Part shown: piece after piece, positions 456-32,617 of the stretch
Position numbering within the stretch: position 1 is the first letter of the stretch
How the letters are laid out: every line of letters begins with the position of its first letter
Origin: Alistipes sp.
Lineage (GTDB): Bacteria; Bacteroidota; Bacteroidia; Bacteroidales; Rikenellaceae
Length of the DNA stretch: 64,000 nucleotides
Reading direction: 5' to 3'
Assembly: GCA_017536555.1 (NCBI GenBank)
Contig: JAFXHE010000001.1
Location: 62,001 to 126,000 of the forward strand
Notes under the pieces: model-generated
Database searches by the model: none
Told to the model about the DNA's origin: nothing
The model's input: only the letters and a program-made list of their open reading frames with translations
Program-made: the position numbers and the translations under genes

Positions 456-885
456 CTGAAGTAAATGAGGATTCCGAGAACAAGCGTAACAACAAAATCG
501 TCCTTTATACACTACCCGATAAAAACGGGTATAAACGAGGAATTTTTAGGCTTGCGTAGTTCGAGAAACCGCAGTTTACAAAGCGTCAATAAGGATTTCG
601 TGAATAAGCGTAACGACAAAATTACCGTTCATACACTACCCAATATAAACGGGTATAAACGAGGAATTTTTAGGCTTGCGTAGTTCGAGAAACCGCAGTT
701 TACTTAAGCGTAAATGAGGATTTCGAGAACAAGCGTAACGACAAAATTACCGTTTATACACTACCCAATAAAAACGGGTATAAACGAGGAATTTTTAGGC
801 TTGCGTAGTTCGAGAAACCGCAGTTTACTTAAGCGTAAATGAGGATTTCGAGAACAAGCGTAACGACAAAATTACCGTTTATACG
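456..885. repeat. Tandem array of 125-bp palindromic repeats (three full units and a partial fourth)
   Basis: Units start at about 456, 581, 706 and 831, each exactly 125 bp after the last. The 581 and 706 units are nearly identical, the 456 unit is more diverged, and the last is cut at about 885. Each junction region forms a long imperfect hairpin of about 105 bp. Its outer arms are GTATAAACG / CGTTTATAC and its centre is GCAGTTTAC-ttaagc-GTAAATGAGG. More degenerate copies of the GTGAATGAGGATTCC part lie at 440-460. The array ends 6 bases before the stop codon of the minus-strand antiporter gene at 891. No convincing protein is encoded; the short frames across it come from the repeat itself. 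The same hairpin centre recurs at 13381-13507. Bases 364-455, left of the array, hold nothing else that I recognise. Confidence 0.85.
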
Positions 886-890
886 TGTTT

Positions 891-2378
891 TTACACCTTG
901 TGTATATGCTTTATACCCAAAGCCTGAACCTGCTGTATAAGTTCCTCATTATTATCAGACACGACAAGTAACTTATCGCCAGGGAGCAACTTTGAGAAGC
1001 CCTTGGGAACGAAGTAGCTATTGTCACGATACACCATCACAACGAGGGTGTTACCTGGTAGTCTGATATCTTTGAGCGTGTCGCCATTATGAAGCATCGA
1101 GGCGGTAACGCCAATCTCCGAGAACTCGCTACGTATATGGTCAGGCACCGTGAGCTTGAAGGTCTTATCGGGCATCTCATACGATAGTGAGAGCCAGTTA
1201 GCCATCGCGCTTACGGTAGAGCCCTGTACAAGTAGCGAGATTATAGTAACGAGGAAGACCACATTGAAGATGTAGTCGGCACCCTCGATACCAGCAGCTA
1301 TGGGGCTCAATGCAAATATGATGGGCACAGCACCACGTAGACCCACCCACGACACATATACGCGTGCTTTGGGTGTAAAATCTCTAAATGGTATCATACA
1401 GGCAAATGTCGATATGGGACGTGACACGAAGATCATAAAAAGACCTACGGCGAGACCCATATATAGCACATCGGGCTGGAGCAACTCTTCTACATCCACA
1501 AGCAGACCCAAAGCAAGGAACATTACGATTTGCAGCAGCCACGTGAAACTATCAAAGAAGGTACCGAGCATATTGCGATAGACAATACGGCGGTTACCTA
1601 CGACAAGACCTGCGATATATACAGCAAGGTATCCGTTACCACTCGAGATAGTGGTAAACGAGAATGTAAAGAAGGCGCAAGCCAACAGTAGCACCGAATA
1701 GAGTGATGGGTTGCTACGTATGTTGATTCGATTGATAATCCACACCGTGACACGTCCAAAGGCGTAGCCAAGAACACCACCTACGGACATCTGTATAATG
1801 AAGGTTATCATCGCCTGCTGCCAATCCAACTCGGCACCACTTGCCGCAATACCAACCAACATAACGGTAAGTATATACGCCATAGGGTCGTTACTACCAC
1901 TCTCCAACTCAAGCAGCGGACGCAGATTCTCACGCAGACCCTGTTTCTTGGCTCGAAGAATCGAGAAGACCGATGCCGAATCGGTAGATGACATCGTCGC
2001 TGCCAGCAACAGTGCGAGCACGACAGATATCTCCACACCGATATACGGTGCTATAAAGTAGATGAAACCACCCGTAATAAGTGCCGTTAGGATGACACCC
2101 AGAGTGGCCATCACCACTCCAGATGCCAGGACAGGCTGTATCTCCGAAAAATTCGTATCCATACCACCCGAGAAGAGTATGATGCAGAGCGCAACCATAC
2201 CTATAAACTGGGCGAACTCATAAGAGTCAAATGTTACGAAGTCGTGATAACCAAAGAGCATACCCACACCCAAGAACAACAACAGGGCGGGGGCTCCGAG
2301 GCGATATGCCGCCTTACCAGCGAGCACTGCGACAAAGAGCAATAAGGCTCCTACAAGGAGGAAATTTTCGTTCAACAT
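891..2378 (-). CDS. Potassium/proton (CPA1-type) antiporter with C-terminal RCK_C domain
   Basis: A 495-residue inner-membrane protein of the monovalent cation:proton antiporter family, NhaP2/CvrA-like. About 12-13 hydrophobic helices span residues 1-400. The ion-binding Asn-Asp pair is visible in the ESGSNDP motif near residue 160. The last ~80 residues (from about KTFKLTVPDH) are soluble and match a TrkA-C/RCK_C regulatory domain, which in this family senses ligand or membrane state. It probably exports K+ (or Na+) in exchange for H+ for pH and ion homeostasis; the exact ion is inferred. The next gene upstream on the same strand is a small membrane protein 39 bp away, so the two may be co-transcribed. 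A palindromic repeat array lies directly behind its stop codon. Confidence 0.85.
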   Translation of the reverse strand: MLNENFLLVGALLLFVAVLAGKAAYRLGAPALLLFLGVGMLFGYHDFVTFDSYEFAQFIGMVALCIILFSGGMDTNFSEIQPVLASGVVMATLGVILTALITGGFIYFIAPYIGVEISVVLALLLAATMSSTDSASVFSILRAKKQGLRENLRPLLELESGSNDPMAYILTVMLVGIAASGAELDWQQAMITFIIQMSVGGVLGYAFGRVTVWIINRINIRSNPSLYSVLLLACAFFTFSFTTISSGNGYLAVYIAGLVVGNRRIVYRNMLGTFFDSFTWLLQIVMFLALGLLVDVEELLQPDVLYMGLAVGLFMIFVSRPISTFACMIPFRDFTPKARVYVSWVGLRGAVPIIFALSPIAAGIEGADYIFNVVFLVTIISLLVQGSTVSAMANWLSLSYEMPDKTFKLTVPDHIRSEFSEIGVTASMLHNGDTLKDIRLPGNTLVVMVYRDNSYFVPKGFSKLLPGDKLLVVSDNNEELIQQVQALGIKHIHKV

Positions 2379-2417
2379 AGTAGTATAATTTTATTTCATA
2401 TCTTCAACCCACAACAT

Positions 2418-2915
2418 CTATCGACGTATCACACGCGGCTCGATGATAGGCTTGCTCTCAAAGCCCACATACTCACAAACCACGTATGCTACCATACCAT
2501 TAGCCGACGTGCGGTACTCCGCCAAAGTGACAGCCGAAATATTGCTCGTGGGCATTGCATCTATAGCTGCATTGTCACCATCCTCAACGGCACGCAAAAG
2601 TGCGGGTAGTCGCTCGCGGTCATAGAAACGTTCACGGTAGCTCATATATCGCTTTGCCGCCACGTCATACGGCACTCGCTCCGAGCCTGCGAGACGCAAT
2701 ACAACGGCAACAACGCCGTATACTACAAGCACGAGACCCGATACAAGCAACATCATACTCAAAGCACCTGCGCTATCTTCTACGGCAAAGTAGTTGATAG
2801 CTAAAATCACAATGCCACAAATAGCGGCAACAAGAGGCTTAACAACAGAACGACGGCGCGCCTCCACAACGCCATCAGGCAAGGCATAAAGTACCTTGCA
2901 AAGAGTATCTTTCAT
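2418..2915 (-). CDS. Small membrane protein of unknown function
   Basis: A 165-residue protein with two adjacent hydrophobic helices at about residues 27-45 and 52-74, a short basic N-terminus, and a soluble C-terminal half rich in charged residues (RYMSYRERFYDRERLPALL). It lies 39 bp upstream of the antiporter gene on the same strand, which suggests one transcript. I do not recognise a family. A helper role for the antiporter would be guesswork. Confidence 0.6.
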   Translation of the reverse strand: MKDTLCKVLYALPDGVVEARRRSVVKPLVAAICGIVILAINYFAVEDSAGALSMMLLVSGLVLVVYGVVAVVLRLAGSERVPYDVAAKRYMSYRERFYDRERLPALLRAVEDGDNAAIDAMPTSNISAVTLAEYRTSANGMVAYVVCEYVGFESKPIIEPRVIRR

Positions 2916-2980
2916 AAAATAATATCTTCGTATTTAGTAAATGTTTAAGGGCATAAATTTTTCAAGACAAAATCTACCCG

Positions 2981-3385
2981 CTAAATACGAAGTCTCTCAA
3001 GACGATACAAGTAGTAGTGTCGAGCACGAGAGACAAATAGTATTTTATGATTATACAGTCCGTAACGATTTGCCACTGTCGAATCTATCGTGCGCACAGC
3101 AGATGCCTCCGTTGAGAATCGCTCGACAAGGCGCAATGTGCGCAATGTGCGCAATGTGCGTGCCACAACAGTTTGTACACTTCCACTATTGGTTATGGTA
3201 CACGGCGCGAGCAGCGACAGTGCCTCATAGCGGTCTATTGTAGGCTGCTCGGGGGTGGCAGTTGATGTAGCAGCGTGTGAAACTGTGTCAATGGTGCATA
3301 CACGCTCATTAGCCGTAGCAGCAATGCTCACACACATCGCCACAACAACTACAAATAAACGGTATGCCCTGCGTAATCCTATCAC
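2981..3385 (-). CDS. Small exported protein of unknown function, overlapping the TonB-like gene
   Basis: A 134-residue reading frame whose ATG overlaps the stop of the upstream TonB-like gene by 4 bases, a typical coupled arrangement and the main reason to accept it. The N-terminus looks like a cleavable signal peptide: basic residues, then LFVVVVAMCVSIAATA, then polar sequence. The mature part has no recognised domain. It contains three 9-bp repeats that read as LRT repeats on the protein level, and its C-terminus is basic and tyrosine-rich (RARHYYLYRLERLRI). It may be real but fast-evolving, or a decaying gene. Confidence 0.45.
   Translation of the reverse strand: MIGLRRAYRLFVVVVAMCVSIAATANERVCTIDTVSHAATSTATPEQPTIDRYEALSLLAPCTITNSGSVQTVVARTLRTLRTLRLVERFSTEASAVRTIDSTVANRYGLYNHKILFVSRARHYYLYRLERLRI
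3131..3157. repeat. Three perfect 9-bp tandem repeats (GCGCAATGT) inside a small reading frame
   Basis: Copies at 3131-3139, 3140-3148 and 3149-3157 are identical and in frame with the minus-strand gene at 2981-3385, so copy number changes would add or remove an Leu-Arg-Thr unit without a frameshift. Confidence 0.85.
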
Positions 3386-4224
3386 TGCGCCACAAAGGTA
3401 TATGTTATCGTTCCGCGCTGGGGTGCGGGAGCCGAATTGTTAATATCAAAGAGTGTGCGGCTATTACGCGCCGCAGACAACGCCTGCTGGTTTAGCTCCG
3501 AGTTTGTTGACGAGGCTATACGCGCCGTAGTCACCGTGCCGTTGCGGTCAATCCAAACATCGACAACTACCACACCACCGCCCTTACTGCGGTAGGCGGG
3601 AACATAGAGGTTGCGATGGTTACGCACAGGAGATTGGAAGCTGTAGCTAACGGTCACAGCACCCGAGAACTTACCCTTATCGCCCGTGCCGTCACCCTTT
3701 GCATTGCCAGAGCCAGAGCCACCTTTACCGATACCCGCGATATCGCGCATACCGCTCTGATAGCTATCGTTGTTCGTCGCCATATCGGATGCTACCTTGC
3801 TCATAAGCTCCTGTGTCTCTGCATCGAAGTTTGTGTTGGCTGTTGAGCCAGCACTCTCCGACGCATCGTTAGACTGGAGGTTGCGCACCTGCTGCATAGC
3901 AGCAAGACGACGGTCAATATCCTCTTGTAGCTTATCGCGCTGACGACGCAATTGTTCTAATTCTTCAATGGTAGGCTCCTCCTCGACAAACTCTATGGTA
4001 TACTCAACGGGGGGTATCTCCACGTTGACACGTGCCGTAAAGAGCAAATAGATACCTACGGCATACGCCACCAAAACCACTACAAGCCCAATACGATGGG
4101 CATAGAGCCATTCGCCAAACGACTCGGAGCGTGTATCACCGAGGTCGATAGCTGAACGACGCACAGAGTGTGGTTGTCTCTGTTTTGTTCTGTTTTGGAT
4201 ATTAATATTCGCCCTTTCTGTCAT
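3382..4224 (-). CDS. Energy transducer TonB family protein
   Basis: A 280-residue protein with TonB topology. It has a polar cytoplasmic N-terminus of about 47 residues, one transmembrane helix (IGLVVVLVAYAVGIYLLF), a charged coiled-coil-like stretch (EELEQLRRQRDKLQEDIDRR), a Gly/Ser/Asn-rich linker and a C-terminal TonB-like domain. That domain carries the family pattern 'vvvDvwIDrnGtVttarI ... lnqqALsAaR'. It should couple ExbBD proton-motive force to outer-membrane transporters, though no exbB, exbD or receptor gene is in the window. The gene is divergent from lpxC/fabZ and overlaps the small exported-protein gene downstream by 4 bp. Confidence 0.75.
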   Translation of the reverse strand: MTERANINIQNRTKQRQPHSVRRSAIDLGDTRSESFGEWLYAHRIGLVVVLVAYAVGIYLLFTARVNVEIPPVEYTIEFVEEEPTIEELEQLRRQRDKLQEDIDRRLAAMQQVRNLQSNDASESAGSTANTNFDAETQELMSKVASDMATNNDSYQSGMRDIAGIGKGGSGSGNAKGDGTGDKGKFSGAVTVSYSFQSPVRNHRNLYVPAYRSKGGGVVVVDVWIDRNGTVTTARIASSTNSELNQQALSAARNSRTLFDINNSAPAPQRGTITYTFVAQ

Positions 4225-4274
4225 TATAACACCATAATTGGAGCAAAAATAGTAATTTTTTCAGTATTTTTATC

Positions 4275-4282
4275 TATCTTTG
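4275..4282 (+). promoter_or_regulatory. Predicted -7 box (TATCTTTG) of the lpxC/fabZ promoter
   Basis: The box matches the Bacteroidota TAnnTTTG consensus and lies 28 bp before the lpxC/fabZ start, in the divergent spacer. The upstream region is T-rich, without a clear TTTG at -33. Confidence 0.6.
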
Positions 4283-4310
4283 CGAAAGATAACTCAAAAA
4301 TATTATCGAA

Positions 4311-5696
4311 ATGGCTACAAAACAACATACCCTCTCCGCAGCAATATCTTTTGAGGGCAAGGGTCTGCATACAGGTTTGCAGGTAAAAATGACTGTCAAT
4401 CCCGCCGAGGAGAATCACGGTATATCATTCCGTCGCGTAGATTTGGAGGATGCCCCCGAGATTCCAGCACTATGCGAATATGTTACCGACACTTCGCGTG
4501 GCACAACCATAGAGAAGGGTGCAGCCAAAGTTAGCACCATCGAACATATAATGTCGGCACTATGGACACTTGGCGTGGACAACGCAATAATAGATATCAA
4601 CGCCCCCGAGACCCCTATTATGGATGGCTCGGCTATGGAGTATGCTGCACGCATCACGGAGACAGGCACCGTAGAGCAGAATGCCGAGCGCAAATACTAT
4701 GAGGTGACAGAGAAGCAGGTTTACACACTTCCCGAGAAGGGCGTAGCTATCATCATCTACCCCGACGATGAGTTCTCTGTATCGGTACACGTTGACTATA
4801 ACTCAAAGGTTGTGGGCAATCAGTACGCTGTATACACCCCTGCTGATAACTATGCCGAGAAGATTGCTCCGTGTCGCACATTTGTCTTCTTGCACGAGCT
4901 TGAGCCACTTATCAATATGAACCTTATAAAGGGCGGTGACCTCGACAACGCTATCGTAGTTGTTGAGAACCCCGTATCTGATGAGCAGCTCAGCCACCTT
5001 AAGGAGATATTTGGCAAGGATGATATCCGCGTAACAGGCGGCTACCTCAACAACCAGCAACTACGCGCCAACAATGAGTTAGCACGCCACAAGTTGCTCG
5101 ACATCCTCGGTGACTTCGCCCTGCTTGGTATGCACATCAAGGGTCGCGTATGGGCAACACGTCCTGGACACTTTGCCAACACCGAGTTTATGAAGAGTCT
5201 CTCTCGCACAATACGTCGTGATGGCGACCGTCCCTCGTTTAAGTATAGCTCAAAGTGCGAGCCTGTCTTCGATATCAATGCCATCAAGGCACGTCTTCCG
5301 CACCGCCCCCCATTCTTGCTCGTTGACCGCGTGTTCCATATCGAGGAGAATGCCATTGGCGGCATCAAGAATGTCTCTATGAATGAGCCTTTCTTCGTGG
5401 GTCACTTCCCCGACGAGCCTGTTATGCCTGGCGTACTCATCATTGAGGCTTTGGCACAGTGTTGCGGCATCCTTGTATTGAGCAAGGTGGAGGATCCCGA
5501 GTTGTACTCGACATACTTCCTTAAGGCTGATAACGTACGCTGGAAGCGCAAGGTCGTTCCTGGTGATACGCTACAGCTTGAGTGTCACATCGTAGATATG
5601 CGTCGTGGCATCTGCACCGCCGAGTGCAAGGCATTTGTTGCAGGTCATCTCGCTTGCGAGGCTGTGCTCACTGCACAGATTGCAAAGAACCGTTAA
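4311..5696 (+). CDS. lpxC/fabZ: Bifunctional LpxC deacetylase / FabZ dehydratase
   Basis: A 461-residue fusion found throughout Bacteroidota. Residues 1 to about 310 are LpxC, the zinc enzyme that deacetylates UDP-3-O-acyl-GlcNAc and commits carbon to lipid A. Zinc ligands appear as H79 (STIEHIMSAL), H260 and D264 (ARHKLLDILGD). Residues of about 315-461 are FabZ, the 3-hydroxyacyl-ACP dehydratase of fatty acid synthesis, with catalytic H365 (GHFPDEPVMPG) and E379. Fusing the two puts the enzymes that compete for 3-hydroxyacyl-ACP on one chain. lpxA follows after 30 bp, so the pair forms a lipid A operon. ATG at 4311 fits the family start. Confidence 0.97.
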   Translation: MATKQHTLSAAISFEGKGLHTGLQVKMTVNPAEENHGISFRRVDLEDAPEIPALCEYVTDTSRGTTIEKGAAKVSTIEHIMSALWTLGVDNAIIDINAPETPIMDGSAMEYAARITETGTVEQNAERKYYEVTEKQVYTLPEKGVAIIIYPDDEFSVSVHVDYNSKVVGNQYAVYTPADNYAEKIAPCRTFVFLHELEPLINMNLIKGGDLDNAIVVVENPVSDEQLSHLKEIFGKDDIRVTGGYLNNQQLRANNELARHKLLDILGDFALLGMHIKGRVWATRPGHFANTEFMKSLSRTIRRDGDRPSFKYSSKCEPVFDINAIKARLPHRPPFLLVDRVFHIEENAIGGIKNVSMNEPFFVGHFPDEPVMPGVLIIEALAQCCGILVLSKVEDPELYSTYFLKADNVRWKRKVVPGDTLQLECHIVDMRRGICTAECKAFVAGHLACEAVLTAQIAKNR

Positions 5697-5726
5697 TAAA
5701 AATAGAAAAACCAATATTAACTAAAT

Positions 5727-6512
5727 ATGATAAGTAATCTGGCATACGTTCACCCCGACGCAAAAATCGGCAAGAACGTCACAATAGAACCATTTGCATA
5801 TATCGAGGGCGATGTTGTCATCGGTGATGACTGCTGGATTGGTCCCCACGCTATTATATACAACGGTGCACGACTTGGCAAGGGCAATAAGGTACATCCT
5901 GGCGCGTGTATTGCGTGCTTGCCTCAAGACCTTAAGTTTGCAGGCGAGCAGACAACAGCCGTTATCGGCGACTATAACGACATCCGCGAGTGCGTGACCA
6001 TATCGCGCGGTACAGTCTCACGTGGCACAACAGTCGTTGGCGACCACAATCTGCTTATGGCGTATGTACACGTTGCTCACGACGACGTTGTGGGCAGCCA
6101 CTGCGTCATTGCTAACCGCGTATCGTTGGCTGGCGAGGTCGAGGTAGGCGACTGGGTTGTCATCGGCGGTCACACAGCTGTACACCAGTGGATACACATC
6201 GGCGACCACGCTATGATTCAGGGTGGTGCGCTTCTTACGCAGGATGTTCCTCCCTACATCATCGTAACCAATGGCGAGGCACACTATGCTGGCATCAACA
6301 AGGTAGGCTTATCACGTCGCGGTTTTACCCCCGAGCAGATTGAGTCTATACATAACACCTGTCGCATACTCTTCCAGAGCGAGCTCAACTACCTCGCTGG
6401 CTGCGACAAGGCAGAGGCAGAGATTGAAGAGAGCGCAGAGCGCAACAAGCTTATTGAGTTTATTCGTGGCTCAAAGCGTGGTGTCATAAAGCAGTATATT
6501 TCAAAGCGATAG
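5727..6512 (+). CDS. lpxA: Acyl-ACP:UDP-N-acetylglucosamine O-acyltransferase
   Basis: A 261-residue cytoplasmic enzyme that adds the 3-hydroxyacyl chain to UDP-GlcNAc, the first step of lipid A synthesis. The N-terminal two thirds are hexapeptide repeats ([LIV]GxxxxI pattern) forming a left-handed beta helix, for example VVIGDDCWIG and KIGKNVTIE. The catalytic histidine is in VHVAHDD (H118 by position, equivalent to E. coli H125). The C-terminal ~70 residues are the helical domain typical of LpxA. It is 30 bp downstream of lpxC/fabZ. A strong hairpin ends the operon. Confidence 0.97.
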   Translation: MISNLAYVHPDAKIGKNVTIEPFAYIEGDVVIGDDCWIGPHAIIYNGARLGKGNKVHPGACIACLPQDLKFAGEQTTAVIGDYNDIRECVTISRGTVSRGTTVVGDHNLLMAYVHVAHDDVVGSHCVIANRVSLAGEVEVGDWVVIGGHTAVHQWIHIGDHAMIQGGALLTQDVPPYIIVTNGEAHYAGINKVGLSRRGFTPEQIESIHNTCRILFQSELNYLAGCDKAEAEIEESAERNKLIEFIRGSKRGVIKQYISKR

Positions 6513-6530
6513 AGTCGCAATCATCACAAA

Positions 6531-6576
6531 TAGAGTGAGGGGATGGCTATTCAGTTTTAGCCATCCCCTCACTCTA
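6531..6576. terminator. Long perfect hairpin between convergent lpxA and argR
   Basis: The 19-bp arms are perfect (6531-6549 and 6558-6576), starting TAGAGTGAGG, with an 8-nt loop. No long T-run follows on either strand, but the position between convergent genes fits a bidirectional terminator or transcript-end stabiliser. Confidence 0.75.
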
Positions 6577-6598
6577 TAAGTTTACTTGTGTGCAGCAA

Positions 6599-7075
6599 TT
6601 ACAGCATACGTATTGACGGAAACAACATATATAGCTGTGTCATAAGCGTATTCATATCGAAGCCCTCACGCAGGATAAGCAGAATGGTGTTATCACCAGC
6701 AATCGTTCCAAGCACCTCACTTATGCCCTTATTGTCGATAGGCACAGAGATAGCACTCGCATAGCCTGGGCGAGTTGTGATGACACACATATTACCAGAG
6801 AACGCGATATCGGTGATATTATCCGTTACATTCGTAGAGATATTGTGGTCATTACGCGCATTGTTGGGTAGCGTGTACACATACCCCTTCTCCTTGTGTG
6901 GCACCTTGGCAACGTGCATAAACTTCAGATCGCGCGACAATGTCGACTGTGTAACAGACACGCCGTTCTCCTCAAGGCGAGCAATAAGCTCCTCTTGCGA
7001 TGATATAAACTCTGATCTTATAATCTTGCGAATTAAAGACATTCGCTTTGTTTTCTGATTCATCGTATCTGCCAT
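6599..7075 (-). CDS. argR: Arginine repressor ArgR
   Basis: A 158-residue transcription factor. Residues 1 to about 75 form a winged-helix DNA-binding domain with the family signature VSVTQSTLSRDL in the recognition region. The C-terminal ~75 residues form the arginine-binding hexamer domain, including GTIAGDNTILLI. It should repress arginine biosynthesis when arginine is abundant. No arg operon is beside it. It transcribes away from the lipoprotein at 7334, and its own promoter region has a perfect 12-bp palindrome at 7115, which suggests self-control. Confidence 0.92.
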   Translation of the reverse strand: MADTMNQKTKRMSLIRKIIRSEFISSQEELIARLEENGVSVTQSTLSRDLKFMHVAKVPHKEKGYVYTLPNNARNDHNISTNVTDNITDIAFSGNMCVITTRPGYASAISVPIDNKGISEVLGTIAGDNTILLILREGFDMNTLMTQLYMLFPSIRML

Positions 7076-7114
7076 AGTTTCATTTCTTATTAAACGTGAC
7101 TATTCGACTATTAT

Positions 7115-7136
7115 TGTTCATGAACATACAAAATTA
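7115..7136 (-). promoter_or_regulatory. argR promoter -7 box with adjacent 12-bp palindrome
   Basis: On the minus strand TAATTTTG (7129-7136) matches TAnnTTTG. A perfect palindrome TGTTCATGAACA (7115-7126) follows two bases further on, over the expected transcription start. This is a natural place for an autorepressor site. It resembles an ARG box only loosely, so ArgR binding is inference. Confidence 0.45.
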
Positions 7137-7231
7137 GTAATTTTGTGGCAAATATTCAACTCTTTTGCAAAGTATAATTTTCATAGTAGCATTTTTTTGA
7201 AGAAAATGGTTGATAATATAAAAGATTTTAC

Positions 7232-7239
7232 TATTTTTG
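7232..7239 (+). promoter_or_regulatory. Predicted -7 box (TATTTTTG) for the lipoprotein at 7334
   Basis: It matches TAnnTTTG and would give a leader of roughly 90 nt. No other conserved element is evident in the rest of the 258-bp divergent spacer. Confidence 0.5.
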
Positions 7240-7333
7240 CACCCAACAGCGGGGTTAATGATAGAGATATAAGGCTATAAATAACCAGATAATTAATTTT
7301 TACTAACTTAATATAAAACTTTACTGAAGTACT

Positions 7334-8860: not shown

Positions 8861-8882
8861 GTAATAATCCAGCGTATATACA

Positions 8883-10292: not shown

Positions 10293-10314
10293 GCAGTTGA
10301 GCGAATAGCTACAT

Positions 10315-10378: not shown

Positions 10379-10397
10379 AATCTCGCGAGATGCGATA

Positions 10398-13380: not shown

Positions 13381-13507
13381 ATTTTATCGTTAGAAGGTAT
13401 TAGATGCGGTAGCTTATCGCAGATTGCAAATCCGCAGTTTACTCGACGTAAATGAGGAATTTGCAGGCAAGTAAGATGCCACAGATGATACCTTATCACG
13501 ATAAAAT
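13381..13507. repeat. 127-bp imperfect palindrome abutting the buk stop codon
   Basis: Outer arms ATTTTATCGTTAGAAGGTAT (13381-13400) and its imperfect complement ending ATCACGATAAAAT (13507) enclose a centre GTTTAC-tcgac-GTAAA at 13437-13452. The arms of about 60 bp pair imperfectly along most of their length. The centre matches the 456-885 array, and the termini match the elements at 32352-32617. It ends one base before the buk stop codon (13509-13511). Its length is close to the 125-bp unit of the first array. Confidence 0.85.
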
Positions 13508-13508
13508 A

Positions 13509-14576
13509 TTAGTACTCCTTTGCTGTGGTCTCACCCTTGAGAACACGCAGAGCATTCTCTGCCAACGACTCAAGCTCGTTCTCACCAGGATAGATCTTGA
13601 TGGGCGCAAGGAACTTACAATAGTCAATGATAACCTCGTTAACACAGTCGTTCCAAGCGATACCACCAGTAAGAAGGATGGCATCAACCTTACCCTTAAG
13701 AACAACAGCCATCTCACCAATCCACTTGGCAACAGAGTACGACATAGTCTTGAGCATAAAGCGAGCCTCCTCGTCACCCGAAGCAGCACGCACCTCATTG
13801 AGCTCCTGAACATTGTTGCAGTTAACGTGATCAACAAGACCACCCTTACCTGCCAGCAACTTCTTGATCTCCGACTTCTCATACTTGCCAGAGAAGCACA
13901 AGTCTACCAAGTCGCCTGCGGGCAGTGTACCTGCACGCTCGGGAGCGATTGGGCCATCACCGTCAAGGGCATTGTTAGTGTCGATAACACGACCCATATT
14001 GTGTGCCGATACAGAGATACCACCACCCATATGCACTACAACAAGATTTAGCTCCTCATAGGGGCGACCAACCTCGGCAGCATAGCGACGTGCAATAGCT
14101 TTCTGGTTGAGTGCGTGGAAGATAGAACGACGTGGCAACTCCTTGATACCGCTGACACGCGCCATATCCTGCAACTCGTCAACAACAACGGGATCGGCAA
14201 TATAAGCCTCGACACCTGCTGCATCAGCAATGCGGCGAGCAATCAAAGCACCAAGGTTGCTGGCGTGCTGACGCTTGGGCGCAGATAGGTCGGCAATCAT
14301 AGCCTCGCCAACACGGTATACGCCACCCTCAATGGGGCGCATAAGACCGCCACGACCAATGACAGCATCCAACGTCTTGAGGTCGATACCATCAGCCTTG
14401 AGAGCATCGAGGATAATCTCAAGACGCCAATCGAGCTGATCGGCAACAGTTTCAAAGCGAGCAATCTCCTCTGCCGAGTGGCTCAACTTCAAGGTCTTAA
14501 CCTGCTCCAAGTCGTGGAACAGAGCAACCTTTGTTGAGGTAGAGCCTGGATTGATTGTTAATATGCTATAAGCCAT
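13509..14576 (-). CDS. buk: Butyrate kinase
   Basis: A 355-residue ASKHA-fold kinase that interconverts butyryl phosphate (or a branched-chain acyl phosphate) plus ADP with the free acid plus ATP. The N-terminal phosphate loop is ILTINPGSTSTKVALF. The family block VVHMGGGISVSAHNMGRVID and the C-terminal ILLTGGIAW are also visible. It is longer than nothing typical: about 355 residues is the normal size. ptb lies 34 bp upstream on the same strand, so ptb-buk form one operon that turns acyl-CoA into acid and ATP. The natural substrate could be isobutyrate or isovalerate rather than butyrate; the sequence does not decide. Confidence 0.93.
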   Translation of the reverse strand: MAYSILTINPGSTSTKVALFHDLEQVKTLKLSHSAEEIARFETVADQLDWRLEIILDALKADGIDLKTLDAVIGRGGLMRPIEGGVYRVGEAMIADLSAPKRQHASNLGALIARRIADAAGVEAYIADPVVVDELQDMARVSGIKELPRRSIFHALNQKAIARRYAAEVGRPYEELNLVVVHMGGGISVSAHNMGRVIDTNNALDGDGPIAPERAGTLPAGDLVDLCFSGKYEKSEIKKLLAGKGGLVDHVNCNNVQELNEVRAASGDEEARFMLKTMSYSVAKWIGEMAVVLKGKVDAILLTGGIAWNDCVNEVIIDYCKFLAPIKIYPGENELESLAENALRVLKGETTAKEY

Positions 14577-22983: not shown

Positions 22984-22999
22984 AGTCACGCGACTATGC

Positions 23000-23040
23000 A
23001 TAAATGAGGGTATCACATTGTTTGTGATACCCTCATTTAT
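23000..23040 (+). terminator. yidC terminator, 18-bp perfect hairpin
   Basis: The arms ATAAATGAGGGTATCACA (23000-23017) and its exact complement (23023-23040) are separated by 5 nt. The downstream flank is AT-rich without a long T-run. Confidence 0.8.
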
Positions 23041-23051
23041 AATATTAGGTA

Positions 23052-23080
23052 TTGCACAACCGATATTTTTACTATCTTTG
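23052..23080 (+). promoter_or_regulatory. Promoter of the M64 peptidase gene
   Basis: TTG (23052-23054), 18 bp, then TATCTTTG (23073-23080), 24 bp before the ATG at 23105. Confidence 0.6.
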
Positions 23081-23104
23081 TCAAAATTAATGTGAATTTT
23101 GTCT

Positions 23105-25624: not shown

Positions 25625-25643
25625 CGGATACCCCAAAAACAAA

Positions 25644-25676
25644 ACGGGAGGCGAAGATTATCTCTTTACCTCCCGT
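25644..25676 (-). terminator. Terminator between the convergent M64 and YgiQ-like genes
   Basis: ACGGGAGG (25644-25651) pairs with CCTCCCGT (25669-25676). On the minus strand the stem is followed by TTTTGTTTTT, so it mainly serves the YgiQ-like operon. Confidence 0.75.
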
Positions 25677-25681
25677 TAGTC

Positions 25682-27505
25682 TTATCTACGGTTACCCGAC
25701 TTTTTATCTTGTCGCCTTACGCCACGCGGCTTTGTCACTTGTGATTTGGGGCTGCGTCTAATGCCCTGTGCTGTCGGCTTTGCACCTCGACTATCATCAG
25801 GGAGCGTACCTCCAAAGAAGTATGCCTTCTGTCGGCGTTTATCATCCTGCGAGCGCGCCACAAACACCTTCTCGCCCGTGTACGGGTTCTCGCCCGTATA
25901 GAACATCGTCGACGAGAGCGTCATCGGCGTAGGTGTCAAGTCCTGCACCTGCTCAAGTGTGAAGTGCAGCTTGCCAAGAACGCGCTGTGCCAACGACCTC
26001 ATATCCTGCTCGGTACACCCAGGATGCGACGATATAAAGTATGGTATTAGCTGATAGCGCAGACCCTCGCGCCTGCATATACTTGTAAATCGCTCATTGA
26101 GCTGCTCAAACATCATGAACGACGGCTTACGCATAAGCTTAAGCACGTGCTCCTCGGTATGCTCTGGCGCAACCTTCAAGCGTCCCGACGTATGATACTT
26201 GACAACGGTATCAAAGTAGTCGCTATCATCAAACAGGTCATAGCGTATGCCGCTGCCGATAAATGCACGCTTCACACCCTTAATCTCGCGTATCTTACGG
26301 TACAGCTCCAACAAGGGTCGGTGGTCGTTATTCATATTGGGACATAGCTTCGGATGCAAGCAGGAGGGACGACGGCACTTGCGGCACAGCTCCTCGTTCT
26401 TGCCTCGCATACGGTACATATTGGCTGACGGAGCACCCACATCTGATAGATTTCCCTTAAAGTCGGGCATAGCCACAACGCGCTTGACCTCGTTTAAGAT
26501 TGAATGCTCCGAGCGCGAATTGATAAACTTGCCCTGATGTGCCGATATAGTACAGAATGAGCAACCGCCAAAGCAACCACGATGTATATTTATCGAGTGC
26601 TTAATCATCTCCCACGCGGGGATGTCACCCTTGCCATTATAGCGTGGATGAGGAGCACGCTCATACTCCAAATCGAATGAGTGGTCAAGTTCATCGGTGG
26701 TGAGTGTTGCGTGGGGCGGTGTTATCACAACATAGTCGTCGCCAGACCTCTCGACGATAGTGGTGTTGCACTCCATCATATTGCTCAAGGTCTCGATATG
26801 CACGAAATTCTTGCCAAAGGTCTGCTTCGAGGCACAACACTCCTCATAAGAGCCAAGGTGCAGCGTTGTAGCAGCATCAAGACGCTCGACATAGCCTCTA
26901 TCAGCAATAAACCCCACCTGTCGCAGACCGCGTAGCAGCTTGGCGTTATAGCCATTACGCATAGCACGCGCCACCTCGCGTATAGGCTTATCACCCATAC
27001 CATACACCAACAAATCGGCACCACTGGTCTTAAGTATCGAGCGATGTAGCGAGTCACTCCAATAGTCGTAGTGCGTAAGACGACGCAGTGATGCCTCAAT
27101 ACCACCAATAACCACAGGTGTATGCGGGAAGAGTCGCTTAAGAATCTGCGTGTATGTGTCTATCGTGCGATCTGGGCGAAAGCCAGCCTTGCCACCTGGC
27201 GTGTAGGCGTCGTTGCTGCGCAAACGCAGGTTTGCCGTATAGTGGTTCACCATAGAGTCCATAGCTCCCGCCGTAACAGCAAAGAAGAGACGCGGCTGCC
27301 CGAGCTTCTTAAAGTCACGCAGGTCATCGCGCCAATTAGGCTGTGGCACAATGGCTACACGATAGCCCTCGGCCTCGAGAAGTCGTCCAATGACAGCAGC
27401 ACCAAAGGCAGGATGGTCGATATAGGCATCACCCGAGAAGATGATGACATCGAGCTGCTCCCAGCCTCGTGCTCTTACCTCCTTTATGGTTGTTGGCAAA
27501 AACAT
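25682..27505 (-). CDS. YgiQ family radical SAM protein
   Basis: A 607-residue protein of the UPF0313/YgiQ group. An N-terminal cobalamin-binding-like domain of about 270 residues precedes the radical SAM core, whose 4Fe-4S cluster cysteines are C311, C315 and C318 in RGCFGGCSFCTIS. A second Cys-rich stretch (CRKCRRPSCLHPKLCP) could bind another cluster. The C-terminal tail is basic and Arg/Lys-rich. The reaction is not known for this family. It is the last gene of the lptG-mqnE/PASTA-rluD group on the minus strand, 88 bp after rluD, possibly on the same mRNA. Confidence 0.88.
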   Translation of the reverse strand: MFLPTTIKEVRARGWEQLDVIIFSGDAYIDHPAFGAAVIGRLLEAEGYRVAIVPQPNWRDDLRDFKKLGQPRLFFAVTAGAMDSMVNHYTANLRLRSNDAYTPGGKAGFRPDRTIDTYTQILKRLFPHTPVVIGGIEASLRRLTHYDYWSDSLHRSILKTSGADLLVYGMGDKPIREVARAMRNGYNAKLLRGLRQVGFIADRGYVERLDAATTLHLGSYEECCASKQTFGKNFVHIETLSNMMECNTTIVERSGDDYVVITPPHATLTTDELDHSFDLEYERAPHPRYNGKGDIPAWEMIKHSINIHRGCFGGCSFCTISAHQGKFINSRSEHSILNEVKRVVAMPDFKGNLSDVGAPSANMYRMRGKNEELCRKCRRPSCLHPKLCPNMNNDHRPLLELYRKIREIKGVKRAFIGSGIRYDLFDDSDYFDTVVKYHTSGRLKVAPEHTEEHVLKLMRKPSFMMFEQLNERFTSICRREGLRYQLIPYFISSHPGCTEQDMRSLAQRVLGKLHFTLEQVQDLTPTPMTLSSTMFYTGENPYTGEKVFVARSQDDKRRQKAYFFGGTLPDDSRGAKPTAQGIRRSPKSQVTKPRGVRRQDKKSGNRR

Positions 27506-27593
27506 AGTTCAACGAAATAACCACACAATAGTTAATTATCCAATATCTTCTAAAGACTCACAGCCGAGTCAACATATTGGCGATGCCACGATA

Positions 27594-28694
27594 TTACACC
27601 TCATCGAGGTCTAAACCCACAGCATCGGTATATGTATCCCACTTCTGTAACACCGCCTTGAAATCATCGGGCATCTCCGACTCAAACTGCACATACTTGC
27701 CCGTTGTTGGATGGTCGAAGCCAAGTGCGCGGGCGTGAAGCGACTGTCGCGGAATGAGCTTAAAGCAGTTCTCTACAAACTGCTTATACTTCATAAAGGT
27801 TGTACCCTTCAGGATGCGGTTGCCGCCATAACGCTCATCGTTAAAGAGCGGATGTCCCTGCCACGACATATGGACACGTATCTGGTGGGTACGTCCTGTT
27901 TCGAGCCTACACTCTACAAGTGTCACATAGCCATAGCGACGCAATACCTTATAGTGAGTCACAGCGTGCTTACCATCAGAGCCATCACTGAAGACATACA
28001 TCTGTAGTCTATCCTTTGGACTACGCCCAATATTTCCGATGATAGTGCCCTCATCCTCGGCAAGATTACCCCACACCAATGCCACATAGCGACGATAGAT
28101 GGTATGGTCAAAAAATTGCTTGGCAAGTGACGCGTGCGCCCTCTCATTCTTCGCCACTACGAGTAGTCCCGAAGTATCCTTATCAATACGATGCACAAGA
28201 CCAGCACGAGCATTACCCTCCGAGAACATAGGCAGATCCTTCAAATGCCACGACAGAGCGTGTACCAACGTGCCAGAGTGGTTGCCAACACCTGGATGCA
28301 CAACCATACCCGCCTCCTTATTTACCACGATGATATCGTCATCCTCATATACAATGTTGAGCGGTATATTCTCGGGTACTATCTCCTCCTTACGGCGTGG
28401 ATAAGGCATCACGATAGATATCTGGTCGAGAGGCTTTACCTTATAGCTCGACTTCTGCGGCTTGCCATTAACCAAGATATTCTGACCATCTGCTGCCGCC
28501 TGTATACGGTTACGCGACGTATGCTCCAGACGTGCTGTCAGGAACTTGTCGAGACGCATCAGCGACTGACCCTTATCTACGGTTATGGCAAAGTGCTCAT
28601 ATAGCTCGTCACCCTCGTCGCTGCTCTCTGCAGATATTGCATCCAGCTCGTCGGGCAACTCATCATATCTATCATCGAAATTTTGTGTCTGCAT
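27594..28694 (-). CDS. rluD: RluA-family pseudouridine synthase (RluD-like)
   Basis: A 366-residue RNA-modifying enzyme. Residues of about 40-110 form an S4 RNA-binding domain (SLMRLDKFLTARLEHTSRNRI). The catalytic domain has the aspartate in LVHRIDKDTSGLLVVAKN and the motif LETGRTHQIRVH. RluD makes pseudouridines in helix 69 of 23S rRNA, and that target is inferred from the family. In many Bacteroidota an rluA-type gene lies beside a PASTA-domain gene, and here it follows the MqnE-PASTA fusion after 11 bp, keeping that pairing. The C-terminus adds an acidic tail. Confidence 0.88.
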   Translation of the reverse strand: MQTQNFDDRYDELPDELDAISAESSDEGDELYEHFAITVDKGQSLMRLDKFLTARLEHTSRNRIQAAADGQNILVNGKPQKSSYKVKPLDQISIVMPYPRRKEEIVPENIPLNIVYEDDDIIVVNKEAGMVVHPGVGNHSGTLVHALSWHLKDLPMFSEGNARAGLVHRIDKDTSGLLVVAKNERAHASLAKQFFDHTIYRRYVALVWGNLAEDEGTIIGNIGRSPKDRLQMYVFSDGSDGKHAVTHYKVLRRYGYVTLVECRLETGRTHQIRVHMSWQGHPLFNDERYGGNRILKGTTFMKYKQFVENCFKLIPRQSLHARALGFDHPTTGKYVQFESEMPDDFKAVLQKWDTYTDAVGLDLDEV

Positions 28695-28705
28695 AAAAAC
28701 CTAAA

Positions 28706-31063
28706 TTACTCCGTAGCACCCTCCTGTGAAGCATCTGCAACTGGGGCATCTACCTCGGTCTTGACCGCCTCCTGTTCGGCTTTAGCAGCCTCCTCTGCCT
28801 CAAACTGTGCGCGTAGTGCAGCCTCCTCCTTACGACGCTGCGCATCATAGCTCTTTGCCGCCTTATCAGAGATCTTTGCCAACGAATCTATGAGCTTTTC
28901 ATCGCACGTGAGATATAGCGTGATACCTGCACCACGACGTGCACCAGAGTTCTGGTGCAACGACTGTTTATATACCTTTGCCTCGCGGCGTGACTTAAAG
29001 TCTGTAATACTCTCATCGTATACCACCTTCTCCACGTTAAGACCACGATCCCACGCAGTGCTCTTTGCCTGCGACAGGCGCATACCAACGAGGCGGGGCA
29101 CACTTGTAAGCTGCTCGTCACGACGATATGTCACGTGTAGTGTCACGCCCGTACCAAAGGGCTCTTGTGCCGATGTCGAGGCGGTGATATCGCGGTTGCC
29201 GATGCTCTGCTTTACAACATAGTCCGTAGAGGTCATATCTGGCTGATATACCAACTTGTCGATGGTAAGTCCCGCACGCTCAAGCTGGTTGAGTGCCTGA
29301 CGTAATGGCTGCTTGGCAACAAATGGCACATCTACAATACGACGATTATAGGCATTTATGGTCACATAGATCTTACGACCAGGCTTTACGGTTACGGTGC
29401 GTATACTTGAGGTGCGAGGCAGCTGGTCGACAACGACACCACCCGCAACATCAGAGTCAAATACCGAGTCGCGTATGACAATATTAAGGTCGAGATCCTC
29501 TGCCATACGCTCCACGTCGCTGACGTGCTGACCAACAAAGTTTGGTATATCTATGCTCTTGCCGTGGCGCGTACCCACCATAAGTCCTATGTACAGGAGT
29601 ATTATGAGTAGTATCATAAGTAGTCCGATGTAGACTACATTGCGCCATACAGGGTGCGATGCAAGGAAACCCTTGGCACTCTTAACACCACGCTTTGCGG
29701 CGGCACTACCCCTCTCCACAACAGCACTCTTTGTTGCGCGTCGCACGCTACTGTTCTCTTTGTCTTCTCTCTGGTGCATTCTCTCTTTACTCTCATTTTT
29801 AGGCGTTGCCACAGGCTGCATAGCAGGCTCGGTGACAACCTCAATATTACTATCTTGCTTACTCTCTCTATCTCTCTCTGCAGCTATTGGTACAACCACA
29901 GGCTCACGCTCCTCAACACGCATAGGCTCTACCTTAACGGGAGCCACCTGCGGCTTGGTGTCTTCGGGCTTGGCGTTTGCGGACTTTGTGCGCAACACGT
30001 GGTTATAGTGCGTATCGCGCTCAACGGGCGTAAAGCCAGCACTCTGCACCATAGCACACAACTCATCTACACTCATCGCGGGCTTCTGGTCGGCTCCCGC
30101 CATTGAGTATATCTTTGTCGAGTCGTCAATGGTGCCGTCGATGTCATCTGCTCCAAATGCCAAAGCCATCTCCGTTGTCGGCTTGCCGTATGCCACCCAA
30201 TATGCCTTGATATGGGGGATGTTATCGAGATATAGACGGCTCATAGCTATCATCCTCAAATCATCCTCAACCGAGCACTCTCCAATAGAGGACATACGGT
30301 TGTGGCGGCTGCGATACTTGAGCGGTATAAAGGCATCAAAGCCTGGTGCTGCATCTTGCAACTTACGCAGACGCTCAAGGTGGTCTACTCGCTGCTCAAG
30401 GCTCTCCACGTGTCCATAGAGCATTGTACAGTTAGTGGGTATTCCCATATTGTGGGCTGCACGATGCACCGCCAACCACTCCTCCGACGAACACTTCTCG
30501 GGACATAGCTTCTCGCGCAACGTCTCATCAAAGATCTCTGCGCCACCGCCTGGTATCGCATCCATACCCGCCTCTTTTAGACGACGCAACCCCTCAACAA
30601 TGCTAATACCCGCACGACGCGTCATATAGAGTATCTCCACAGCCGTATATGCCTTCACCGCAACCTCTGGCAACACACCCTTCACACGACGAATCATAGC
30701 GCAGTAGGTATTCAAGTCGTGCTTGGGGTGTACACCACCAACAATATGCACCTCGGTAATATCGGAACCCTGCATCTCTCGCGCACGCGCCTCGATGTCG
30801 TCCAGCGACATATTCCACGCATCGGCATCACCCTCACGACGACGAAACGAGCAGAACTCGCAGTTGAACAGGCAGATGTTTGTAGGCTCAAGATGAATGT
30901 TGCGATTGTAGTATACCTCGTCACCACTCATCTGTCGCTTACGCTCCGTAGCAAGCTCACCCAAGAGCCACAGCGGTGCTTCACGCCACAATATAAGGGC
31001 ATTCTCCGCCGTAAGACGCTCTCCCGAGCGTACCGAGCTAACAATGTTATCTAATGTCTGCAT
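28706..31063 (-). CDS. mqnE: Aminofutalosine synthase MqnE fused to a membrane-anchored three-PASTA protein
   Basis: One uninterrupted 785-codon frame holds two proteins. Residues 1 to about 358 are a complete radical SAM enzyme of the MqnE type, with NIHLEPTNICLFNCEFCSF and cluster cysteines C64, C68 and C71. MqnE joins S-adenosylmethionine to 3-[(1-carboxyvinyl)oxy]benzoate, making aminofutalosine for menaquinone. Residues of about 360-465 are a charged, low-complexity linker. A single transmembrane helix follows at about 475-497. Three PASTA domains come next (about 503-574, 575-647, 652-720), then a Glu/Ala-rich coiled tail. PASTA domains usually bind peptidoglycan-type ligands outside the membrane. 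Topology would place MqnE in the cytoplasm and PASTA in the periplasm. The gene lies between lptG (1 bp) and rluD (11 bp), the usual position of a stand-alone PASTA gene. Confidence 0.85.
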   Translation of the reverse strand: MQTLDNIVSSVRSGERLTAENALILWREAPLWLLGELATERKRQMSGDEVYYNRNIHLEPTNICLFNCEFCSFRRREGDADAWNMSLDDIEARAREMQGSDITEVHIVGGVHPKHDLNTYCAMIRRVKGVLPEVAVKAYTAVEILYMTRRAGISIVEGLRRLKEAGMDAIPGGGAEIFDETLREKLCPEKCSSEEWLAVHRAAHNMGIPTNCTMLYGHVESLEQRVDHLERLRKLQDAAPGFDAFIPLKYRSRHNRMSSIGECSVEDDLRMIAMSRLYLDNIPHIKAYWVAYGKPTTEMALAFGADDIDGTIDDSTKIYSMAGADQKPAMSVDELCAMVQSAGFTPVERDTHYNHVLRTKSANAKPEDTKPQVAPVKVEPMRVEEREPVVVPIAAERDRESKQDSNIEVVTEPAMQPVATPKNESKERMHQREDKENSSVRRATKSAVVERGSAAAKRGVKSAKGFLASHPVWRNVVYIGLLMILLIILLYIGLMVGTRHGKSIDIPNFVGQHVSDVERMAEDLDLNIVIRDSVFDSDVAGGVVVDQLPRTSSIRTVTVKPGRKIYVTINAYNRRIVDVPFVAKQPLRQALNQLERAGLTIDKLVYQPDMTSTDYVVKQSIGNRDITASTSAQEPFGTGVTLHVTYRRDEQLTSVPRLVGMRLSQAKSTAWDRGLNVEKVVYDESITDFKSRREAKVYKQSLHQNSGARRGAGITLYLTCDEKLIDSLAKISDKAAKSYDAQRRKEEAALRAQFEAEEAAKAEQEAVKTEVDAPVADASQEGATE

Positions 31064-31064
31064 A

Positions 31065-32174
31065 CTATTTCGGTGCTTTGTTATACACTATTACTGCTAT
31101 TATGGCGTATATTATGTTGGGCAGCCATACACCAAGCCACGGTGTCATCGAGCCACTTATGGCAATCTGCTCAAATACTCGTCCTAACATAATATAACTG
31201 AAACACAGCGTGATACCCAAACCAATGTGCATACCCATACCACCGCGCACCTTGCGCGATGATAGAGCAACACCTATCAGCGTGAGGATAAACGTCGAGA
31301 AGGGATATGAGTAGCGCGTATGTCGCTCTACCTCGATGATGAATACGTTGTCGGAGCCTTTACGACGCTGCTGCGACAAGAAGTCGTTTATCTCCTCAAT
31401 TGTCATCGTCTTTACCAAAGACTTAACCTCGCTCAACTCGCGGGCATCAAGGTTGATGAGTGTGTCGAGATTACGATACTGCTTGTATCCCAACGAGCCA
31501 TCCTCCGAGCGTGTGTATATCACATATCGCGGTGCTGTCCAACGCCCCGACTCCTCGTCAAACGATGCGCTGGCAGCGTTCAGCGTCTCAACCATCTCCG
31601 AATTTTCAAACCTCTCGAGGGCAAAGAATGGCACTCGCTCCAGATGAGGCGAGTAGCCTCGCACATAGGCAAATGTTCCTGGTTCAATCTGGCGGTATAC
31701 GTGATCCTCGTACATTATCACCTGGTTCTTCTTGAGATACTGGCTCTGAAACTCCATACTCTTGCGCTGTGTTATGGGTATCACCCATAGGCTCAACACA
31801 ACAGATAGTAGCGCGATGATTGATGCTCCAACAAAGTAGGGCCACATAAGTCGTCTAAAGCTAACGCCACCAGATAATATCGCCACAATCTCGGTCTGCA
31901 TAGCCATCTTCGACGTGAAGAATATCACGGCGATAAAGGTAAATAGCGACGAGAACTGATTTATGAAGTAGGGCACAAAGTTGAGGTAGTAGTCGAAGAT
32001 TACATCTCGCCACGGTGCCTTAAGCTCGGTAAAATCATCGACCTTCTCCACATAGTCAAATACCACAACGACTATGATGATCATCAACAGACCAAAGATG
32101 TACGTCGACAGGAACTTTCCAAGAATATACCTGTCAAGTGTACGATAACCGCGTATGGATGGTATAAGTCTCAC
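31065..32174 (-). CDS. LptF/LptG-family lipopolysaccharide export permease
   Basis: A 369-residue inner-membrane protein of the YjgP/YjgQ family. It has three N-terminal helices (starting LDRYILGKFLSTYIFGLLMII), a periplasmic beta-jellyroll domain (about 135-270) and three C-terminal helices. With LptB2 and LptC it extracts LPS from the inner membrane. F versus G cannot be told apart from the sequence alone, and Bacteroidales often have only some of the set. The next gene, mqnE/PASTA, begins 1 bp after its stop. A 443-bp spacer full of palindromic repeats lies upstream, and I saw no clear -7 box in it on this strand. Confidence 0.88.
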   Translation of the reverse strand: MRLIPSIRGYRTLDRYILGKFLSTYIFGLLMIIIVVVVFDYVEKVDDFTELKAPWRDVIFDYYLNFVPYFINQFSSLFTFIAVIFFTSKMAMQTEIVAILSGGVSFRRLMWPYFVGASIIALLSVVLSLWVIPITQRKSMEFQSQYLKKNQVIMYEDHVYRQIEPGTFAYVRGYSPHLERVPFFALERFENSEMVETLNAASASFDEESGRWTAPRYVIYTRSEDGSLGYKQYRNLDTLINLDARELSEVKSLVKTMTIEEINDFLSQQRRKGSDNVFIIEVERHTRYSYPFSTFILTLIGVALSSRKVRGGMGMHIGLGITLCFSYIMLGRVFEQIAISGSMTPWLGVWLPNIIYAIIAVIVYNKAPK

Positions 32175-32229
32175 TGTTTGTTTTTCTAAATTTGTTATTT
32201 GTTACGCACTATGTGTATCTCTCGTTTCG

Positions 32230-32271
32230 GGGCAGCAAGCTATACATCGAAGCTGCACCCTTATCACGAAA
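32230..32271. repeat. Half copy of the 124-bp palindromic element
   Basis: CGGGGCAGCAAGC...GCTGCACCCTTATCACGAAAC resembles the right half of the element at 32352-32475 (CGGGGCAACAAGCTC...GCGCCCTTATCACAAAAAA). Its left half is missing, possibly lost at the lptG side. Confidence 0.6.
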
Positions 32272-32284
32272 CTATTAAGAGCCC

Positions 32285-32351
32285 CCTCCGCTGAGAGCGG
32301 TTTTTTTCCACCCTGTTGAGAGTAGTTTCATCCCCTCCTTGTTGAGAGTGG
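32285..32351. repeat. Three 25-26 bp direct repeats with a TGAGAG core
   Basis: CTGAGAG (32291), TTGAGAG (32316) and TTGAGAG (32342) are each preceded by C-rich sequence (CCCTCC or CACCCT) and followed by G.GGTTTTTT or TAGTTTC. A fourth, looser copy, TTTGAGAGC, is at about 32484. They lie between the palindromic elements. Confidence 0.65.
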
Positions 32352-32475
32352 TTTTTTGTCAGAAGGGTTGCAGATGTGGTGGTGAGTCGCAGTTGGCACG
32401 GATGGGACATACTTTGGGTATTTCCCATTCGGGGCAACAAGCTCAACGCCGCAGATGCGCCCTTATCACAAAAAA
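32352..32475. repeat. 124-bp palindromic element (copy 1 of the pair behind tgt)
   Basis: It starts TTTTTTGTCAGAAGGG and ends CCCTTATCACAAAAAA, so its ends are imperfect inverted repeats. The centre forms ATGGG...CCCAT at 32402-32428. The flanking arms pair only partly. Confidence 0.8.
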
Positions 32476-32493
32476 CAAAGAACTTTGAGAGCA

Positions 32494-32617
32494 TTTTTTG
32501 TCAGAAGGGTGCAGATACAACGCTCGGCGAATTTCGAGGCGATGGGCTGTACCTCACGTACTGCCCATTGACGAGATAATTCGTTAGCGGCAGTAGATGC
32601 GCCCTTATCACAAAAAA
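32494..32617. repeat. 124-bp palindromic element (copy 2), abutting the tgt stop codon
   Basis: It has the same ends as copy 1 and the same length. The centre is GATGGGCTGTAC...GTACTGCCCATT at about 32540-32569. The right end touches the stop codon of the minus-strand tgt gene. The termini also match those of the 13381-13507 element (CCTTATCACGATAAAA). Confidence 0.8.

Follow-up and report, generated by a model that had tools for sequence, protein, structure and literature searches.

Integron attC sites, in the accessible part of an integron review, are imperfect hairpins located behind a stop codon, whose structure rather than sequence is conserved and which are recognised as a folded bottom strand (PMC8618304). 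The repetitive extragenic palindromic (REP) sequences are 20-40 bp long according to the available text of one report (PMC3733652), and the portion available of another mentions copies at 15 nt or less from a stop codon that are reported to stall ribosomes (PMC12306157). Excerpts of a further source describe ERIC (enterobacterial repetitive intergenic consensus, or RU-1; 127 bp) and YPAL (RU-2, 168 bp) as dispersed, structured enterobacterial repeats without a gene of their own, YPAL having target duplications of 3-26 bp (PMC2229807). The hairpin family analysed here was detected in a 64-kb stretch of Alistipes sp. (assembly GCA_017536555.1, contig JAFXHE010000001.1, positions 62,001 to 126,000), hereafter the window. 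It resembles ERIC and YPAL, as those excerpts present them, in being of similar size, dispersed, structured and without its own gene; it differs from both in a placement fixed to gene ends, and from YPAL, which duplicates its target, in the lack of duplication at nested sites. In the best reading of the sequence comparisons, it is a large family of ~128-base hairpins in gut bacteria related to Alistipes that appears to have spread by insertion directly 3' of genes. No title or abstract describing it was found in the literature searched, most subscription journals being outside its reach.

The window harbours six full copies plus fragments, all on the minus strand and in a single orientation relative to the host gene. 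They form one homologous family with two subfamilies: subfamily I is made of 128-bp units, found here 3' of buk and tgt, and subfamily II of units of about 111-123 bp, found 3' of a Na+/H+ antiporter gene. Behind tgt (32618..33778, minus strand), the first subfamily I copy (32492..32619 in the sense of tgt; covariance model E 1.1e-20) bears its structure on the plus strand, and its arm shares two bases with the tgt stop codon (TGA, 32618-32620); a second copy (32350..32477, E 2.7e-25) and a degenerate half copy with the left end only (32210..32275, around 32258, limits set by eye) follow. A short recurring unit like CTCTCAACGGGGAG is present at 32270-32350, and the same type of unit lies between or behind array copies downstream of elements at three other loci of this genome (L005, L012, L010). 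The copy behind the acetokinase-family gene (13509..14576, minus strand, named buk in an earlier note on this stretch) spans 13381..13507 (E 2.8e-21) and shares its centre with subfamily II. The antiporter gene (Na_H_Exchanger family, 891..2378, minus strand) precedes subfamily II copies at 771..891 (E 1.2e-27), 646..763 (E 1.2e-24) and 527..641 (E 1.8e-20), and a degenerate remnant with a 20-bp repeat at about 431..526.

The earlier note had reported long hairpins at these three loci, all of which are real by covariance models, with slightly corrected coordinates. Its fixed length of 124-127 bp holds in the sense of discrete units but not of a single length, the two subfamilies differing in this respect, and its tandem at 456-885 is a true array that comprises three full copies plus a fragment. 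The centre that it saw as common to the first two loci is recovered by cross-matching: the subfamily II model matches 13386-13502 (E 3.5e-9), and the subfamily I model matches 770-892 weakly (E 5e-4). The ends common to the last two loci are equally borne out, the 13381 copy and both tgt copies fitting one model. Since the element at 13381-13507 is matched by both models (99 bits with R2, subfamily I; 51 bits with R3, subfamily II), the two subfamilies are homologous. In the window, the 14-base end motif is present five times with at most two mismatches, versus 0.39 expected. The distance between element and stop, said to be 0-6 bp for these minus-strand genes, is indeed 0 bp for tgt, 1 bp for buk and 6 bp (to the paired arm) for the antiporter gene. 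Apart from a tRNA, no Rfam family reaches its gathering score in the window, and a single chance-level match is found near the tgt copies at E <= 10.

The subfamily I unit comprises a core of ~112 bases, GTGATAAGG...CATCT ... ATCT...CCTTCTGAC, flanked by two 8-base arms. Counted from the core in 49 elements at the commonest stop distance, arm positions 1-7 pair in 46-49 elements and position 8 in 37, then pairing falls to 11/49 at position 9 and 5/49 at position 10. This drop indicates a sharp unit end, despite a variable arm sequence (TTTCTT, TTTGTT, TTTAGC or CCTTTCTT, and GGAGGCG in Pullibacteroides). Among 49 copies of less than 80% mutual identity, the stem that separates ends from centre is strongly divergent, the matched length being 126-133 in 48 of them and 118 in the remaining one. 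An alignment of 46 diverse copies (seven degenerate rows excluded beforehand, two of the pool of 47 unused, one distant element added) displays two-sided changes in 31 of 35 pairs; 94.4% of its cells are paired, versus 70.9% after shuffling and 36-47% with the partner slid by 1-3 columns, and the covariation score is 0.615 versus 0.172. Most young subfamily II copies (L300-L339) possess a second, perfect short hairpin to the right, GGAGATGACTAA...TTAGTCATCTCC or a variant of it; compared by eye, these hairpins differ between genomes in a compensating manner, and their loop is inverted at L311 and L315. Short hairpins of ~47-58 bases with both element ends but without the centre (L137:5755 on the minus strand, L139:479-525) are deletion derivatives.

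This structure is asymmetric with respect to the strands. On the strand of host-gene sense, a count under a neutral score of isolated mismatches, each with two Watson-Crick pairs to either side, gives 222 A.C versus 12 G.U, and these A.C mismatches are G.U wobbles on the antisense strand. Folding energy is lower for the antisense strand in 137/137 elements, with a mean of -65.4 versus -50.8 kcal/mol for the sense strand; in the antisense strand, as read from the sequence, the two CATCT repeats form a tandem G.A motif inside the helix. Because of this mismatch excess and of the lower energy, selection would most simply act on the fold of the antisense strand, in the form of either RNA or single-stranded DNA.

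The placement of subfamily I was scored on 137 distinct elements, corresponding to the best 150 matches after merging both-strand duplicates. In 93 of them, a sense open frame of at least 70 codons ends in the interval from 25 bases upstream to 10 downstream of the core start, a few of these frames being short, with 71-104 codons (the second copy of L145, L096, L085, L152 and L125); the other 44 are later array copies, locus ends or the neighbour of a tRNA. The stop-to-core distance is 6 in 51 cases, 7 and -4 in nine each, 8 and 10 in five each, 9 in four, 11 in three and 5 in two, with one case each at 12, 16, 21, 1 and -7. Hence 91/137 elements lie at -7 to +12 bp from a same-sense stop, 51 of them at exactly 6, as compared to 270 (8.6%) and 23 (0.7%) of 3130 control points, which are random intergenic positions in 80 of the loci, treated alike; mapping relative to stops, proposed beforehand as a check, extends the pattern of the three window loci to the family. 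A coarser gene call finds the upstream gene on the element's strand in 124 of the 128 elements that have a called one. All 17 strong subfamily I arrays of the window's genome abut a gene 3' end. In 16 of them the gene encodes a protein, and for two of these genes the stop codon lies within the element; the remaining array is next to a tRNA-Gly(CCC) gene, with a two-base overlap between the element and the predicted tRNA end. At L040:1501-1701, an element at a tRNA-Gly(CCC) 3' end is followed just downstream by a truncated copy of the tRNA 3' end and then by a second element. The hosts scanned are ordinary genes, including tgt and those of release factor RF3, GMP synthase, elongation factor G, RsfS and RimP.

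At distance 6, the AA of the arm doubles as the AA of a TAA stop, while behind other stops the arm can come after them, as with AGTTTC...GAAACT behind TAG at L121. TAATTT as the sole target rule was considered and rejected: outside elements, it coincides with a stop codon at only 14 of 263 sites, and the sister tgt stops fetched are not generally followed by TTT. Among 30 subfamily II copies scored by a motif that misses the GCTCA-centre copies (G028, G035, G064), 23 are behind a same-sense gene, 20 of these at -13 to 27 bases. In a set of 36 rows from five genomes, which shows the GCTCA-centre copies, a same-sense frame ends at most 70 bases upstream of the anchor in 26 rows, with widely varying distances, and no such frame ends in that range in the other 10. 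By these counts, the subfamily II rule is near and behind gene ends, the young copies obeying the stop-codon rule only loosely.

Filled and empty sites can be compared at tgt, for which 30 loci, the window's own included, were fetched of 40 genomes with a match. All 29 sister orthologues have the same protein end and no element in the 167 bases read downstream, and tgt keeps its native C-terminus next to the element in the window's genome. The next gene after the array, lptF/lptG (31065..32174, minus strand), lies 1-194 bp behind tgt in 28/29 sister loci versus 443 bp in the window, where the hairpin array fills the gap. Other filled/empty pairs are L105 and L029 versus L142, L141 versus L108, L164, L123 and L209, and L021 versus L132. 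Judged from such comparisons, the hairpins are insertions. The earlier proposal of a mobile, structured family at gene 3' ends therefore gains support from the dispersed copies, the covariation, the placement counts and the empty sister sites, and a genome-wide scan, set in advance as the test that could overturn it, retrieves many copies with shared ends and non-random placement.

At L188 and L287, a subfamily I element is nested in a subfamily II element, between GTCGT and GCTCGC, so that uninterrupted subfamily II copies represent the empty site. No direct repeat is seen at these two nested insertions and 2-3 target bases are missing; neither shows the target duplication of a miniature inverted-repeat transposable element (MITE), to which the earlier note had likened the family. 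The two share one junction, which makes one ancestral event possible: the same target may have been hit twice, or a composite unit may have moved. A direct duplication of AATT was discarded, arms such as CCTTTCTT/AAGAAAGG and AGTTTC/GAAACT being inverted and not direct. The downstream regions of orthologous filled loci, compared for a base-exact gain, display turnover without a clean case. Among 112 arrays, 24 contain at least two full copies. Where two copies are adjacent (25 pairs), the one proximal to the gene has better paired arms in 19 pairs, equally paired arms in four and worse paired arms in two, as expected if new copies arrive beside the gene.

The window's genome (1.63 Mb, 79% complete) contains 26 places in 17 arrays with the first subfamily I model (E <= 6e-11). 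At E <= 0.01, subfamily I model matches are present in 28 of the 36 other genomes of the genus, several of which have more than 50 (at most the best 57 candidates per genome scored; both strands counted, weak matches possibly belonging to subfamily II), and in none of 24 genomes from other families of the Bacteroidales order. The subfamily II model matches in 45/61 genus genomes, with equal scores in runs within one genome. Contigs end a few to several hundred bases past a subfamily II copy in G035 (C18, C35, C44) and G465 (C16, C19, C27), as would be the case if assemblies broke at near-identical copies. Public genomes scanned with a pattern yield at least 80 loci with the element; among the matches listed, all are titled Alistipes sp. 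or Rikenellaceae bacterium, bar one Candidatus Pullibacteroides, and many titles name ruminant guts. Class-wide, the antisense-strand model R2 matches 5 of 395 genomes at E <= 0.001: the window's own, two from other families of the order and two elsewhere in the class. The distant elements retain the fold, and a same-sense open-frame stop lies within 3 bases in 5 of the 12 cut out from 13 distant loci, the remaining locus (L251) being too close to a contig end.

These data suggest that the hairpins are probably non-autonomous mobile elements that act as structured nucleic acid and are inserted at gene ends, their recognised form being the folded antisense strand. A discrete unit (128 bp in subfamily I) has been added directly 3' of ordinary genes in one orientation, without target-site duplication in the two readable nested cases, and often into arrays whose gene-proximal copy has the better paired arms. 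What is conserved in the hairpin is the base pairing of its antisense strand, and mobility would recognise this strand folded on itself, as single-stranded DNA, similarly to attC, or as an RNA intermediate, with joining at a place set by the gene end and not by a DNA consensus. Two routes would fit this anatomy: a recombinase that, like IntI at attC, acts on single-stranded DNA in folded form, and RNA-primed copying.

Several observations weigh against insertion of a folded strand at gene ends. In the nine -4 cases and the single -7 case, the stop that closes the called gene lies within the element; the -7 case (L043) resembles a later deletion on comparison with L114 and L076. Subfamily II copies are close to stops and not exactly at them. 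The two nested insertions, with their common junction, may be one event, and an age order of arrays by model score is unsupported, the proximal copy scoring better in only 14 of 24. Every result rests on sequence comparison. As for the enzymes, Y1_Tnp is found in 0/37 genus genomes, in contrast to 19 of 24 other genomes of the order, and a Y1/RAYT (IS200-type) origin was rejected. Integron integrase over the TIGR02249 cut-off is likewise found in 0/37, weaker matches, Xer-like tyrosine recombinases, being present in 37/37 and representing possible mobilising enzymes. RVT_1 (E <= 0.001) is not matched in 10 copy-rich genomes, incomplete assemblies each with at least 27 model matches (G004, G011, G017, G021, G022, G024, G027, G028, G034, G035), and is present in the copy-free G002, G007 and G023; a reverse transcriptase was consequently rejected as the common factor. 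A tyrosine recombinase near elements in G017, G025 and G035 was also set aside, as the elements there sit behind other genes in ordinary neighbourhoods (obg-like and secD-like open frames by eye, for example).

Other explanations have to be weighed against the same evidence. The hairpin could act as a regulatory RNA of the 3' untranslated region, in the host mRNA directly after the stop, its position being kept by selection and not by targeting. The exact closeness of subfamily I to stop codons, the elements long kept behind orthologous genes of different genomes and the precedent of the stop-proximal REP copies reported to stall ribosomes, in the portion available of that report (PMC12306157), are in its favour. 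It is nonetheless unlikely: the pairing pattern points to the opposite strand, contrary to the earlier idea of an RNA structure in the host gene's own 3' untranslated region, one array lies behind a tRNA gene, the placement of subfamily II is looser, and 29/29 fetched sister tgt genes are devoid of the element. The antisense structure, the orientation, the junctions in or just behind the stop and the tRNA case would be jointly explained by an RNA-mediated retroelement, with an RNA template of antisense sense and DNA copying primed by an mRNA or tRNA 3' end or by DNA nicked at the gene end; the absence of RVT_1 matches in the 10 copy-rich genomes and its presence in the three copy-free ones make this quite unlikely.

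The family could also be an ordinary MITE, mobilised by a DDE transposase whose target includes stop codons by chance. In favour of this are the short, dispersed palindromic units with conserved ends. Such an origin is very unlikely in view of the nested sites without duplication, of the rarity of stop codons among the TAATTT sites outside elements, and of outer arms that vary with compensating changes; furthermore, no longer element with the same two ends was present among the unpaired ends in the fetched loci, a sample of genomes. Transcription terminators or insulators spread by recombination appear highly improbable. The location of 18 of the 30 scored subfamily II copies between convergent genes and the second short hairpin on many copies of that subfamily agree with them, whereas the subfamily I arms, T-rich at 5' and A-rich at 3' on either strand, are the reverse of an intrinsic terminator, and 69/137 subfamily I elements are flanked on both sides by genes of the element's own sense.

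Insertion of a folded antisense strand at gene ends, the preferred reading, invites comparison with the known systems. REP sequences and bacterial interspersed mosaic elements (BIMEs) with RAYT (Y1) likewise are palindromic and intergenic, with near-stop copies, as far as the accessible text describes them; the hairpin exceeds their 20-40 bp with ~128 bp, and the lack of Y1_Tnp in 37/37 genus genomes does not sustain the REP-like nature, in the strict sense, proposed earlier. The family resembles attC in consisting of imperfect hairpins behind stop codons that are conserved in structure and not in sequence; the structure-bearing strand of the hairpins is also opposite to the gene, and conservation of a folded bottom strand is found in the family through mismatches, folding energy and covariation. 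The R box of attC has the consensus RYYYAAC / GTTRRRY. In this form, it is found in 0/46 elements on both strands, and the family differs from attC in this as well as in the absence of integron integrase over the cut-off in the 37 genus genomes. Besides, the hairpins are dispersed behind housekeeping genes, and their tandem copies are gene-less. The family is therefore not filed under REP, attC, ERIC or YPAL, as it lacks defining features of REP and attC and is placed differently from ERIC and YPAL.

Insertion tied to stop codons, an antisense structure and no readable target duplication, taken as a whole, fit no mechanism tested. Small mobile palindromes are already known; the placement of a DNA insertion by a gene end is a direct, testable question. 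There is a small chance that the hairpins belong to an undescribed mobility system that writes folded-strand hairpins behind gene ends, i.e. stops and one tRNA 3' end, in an attC-like manner without integrons. The formation of new gene cassettes is named an outstanding question in the accessible part of the integron review (PMC8618304), and a system placing attC-like hairpins behind stops would bear on it. If this were true and the hairpins recombinable, it would provide a natural route from a plain gene to a gene-plus-hairpin cassette.

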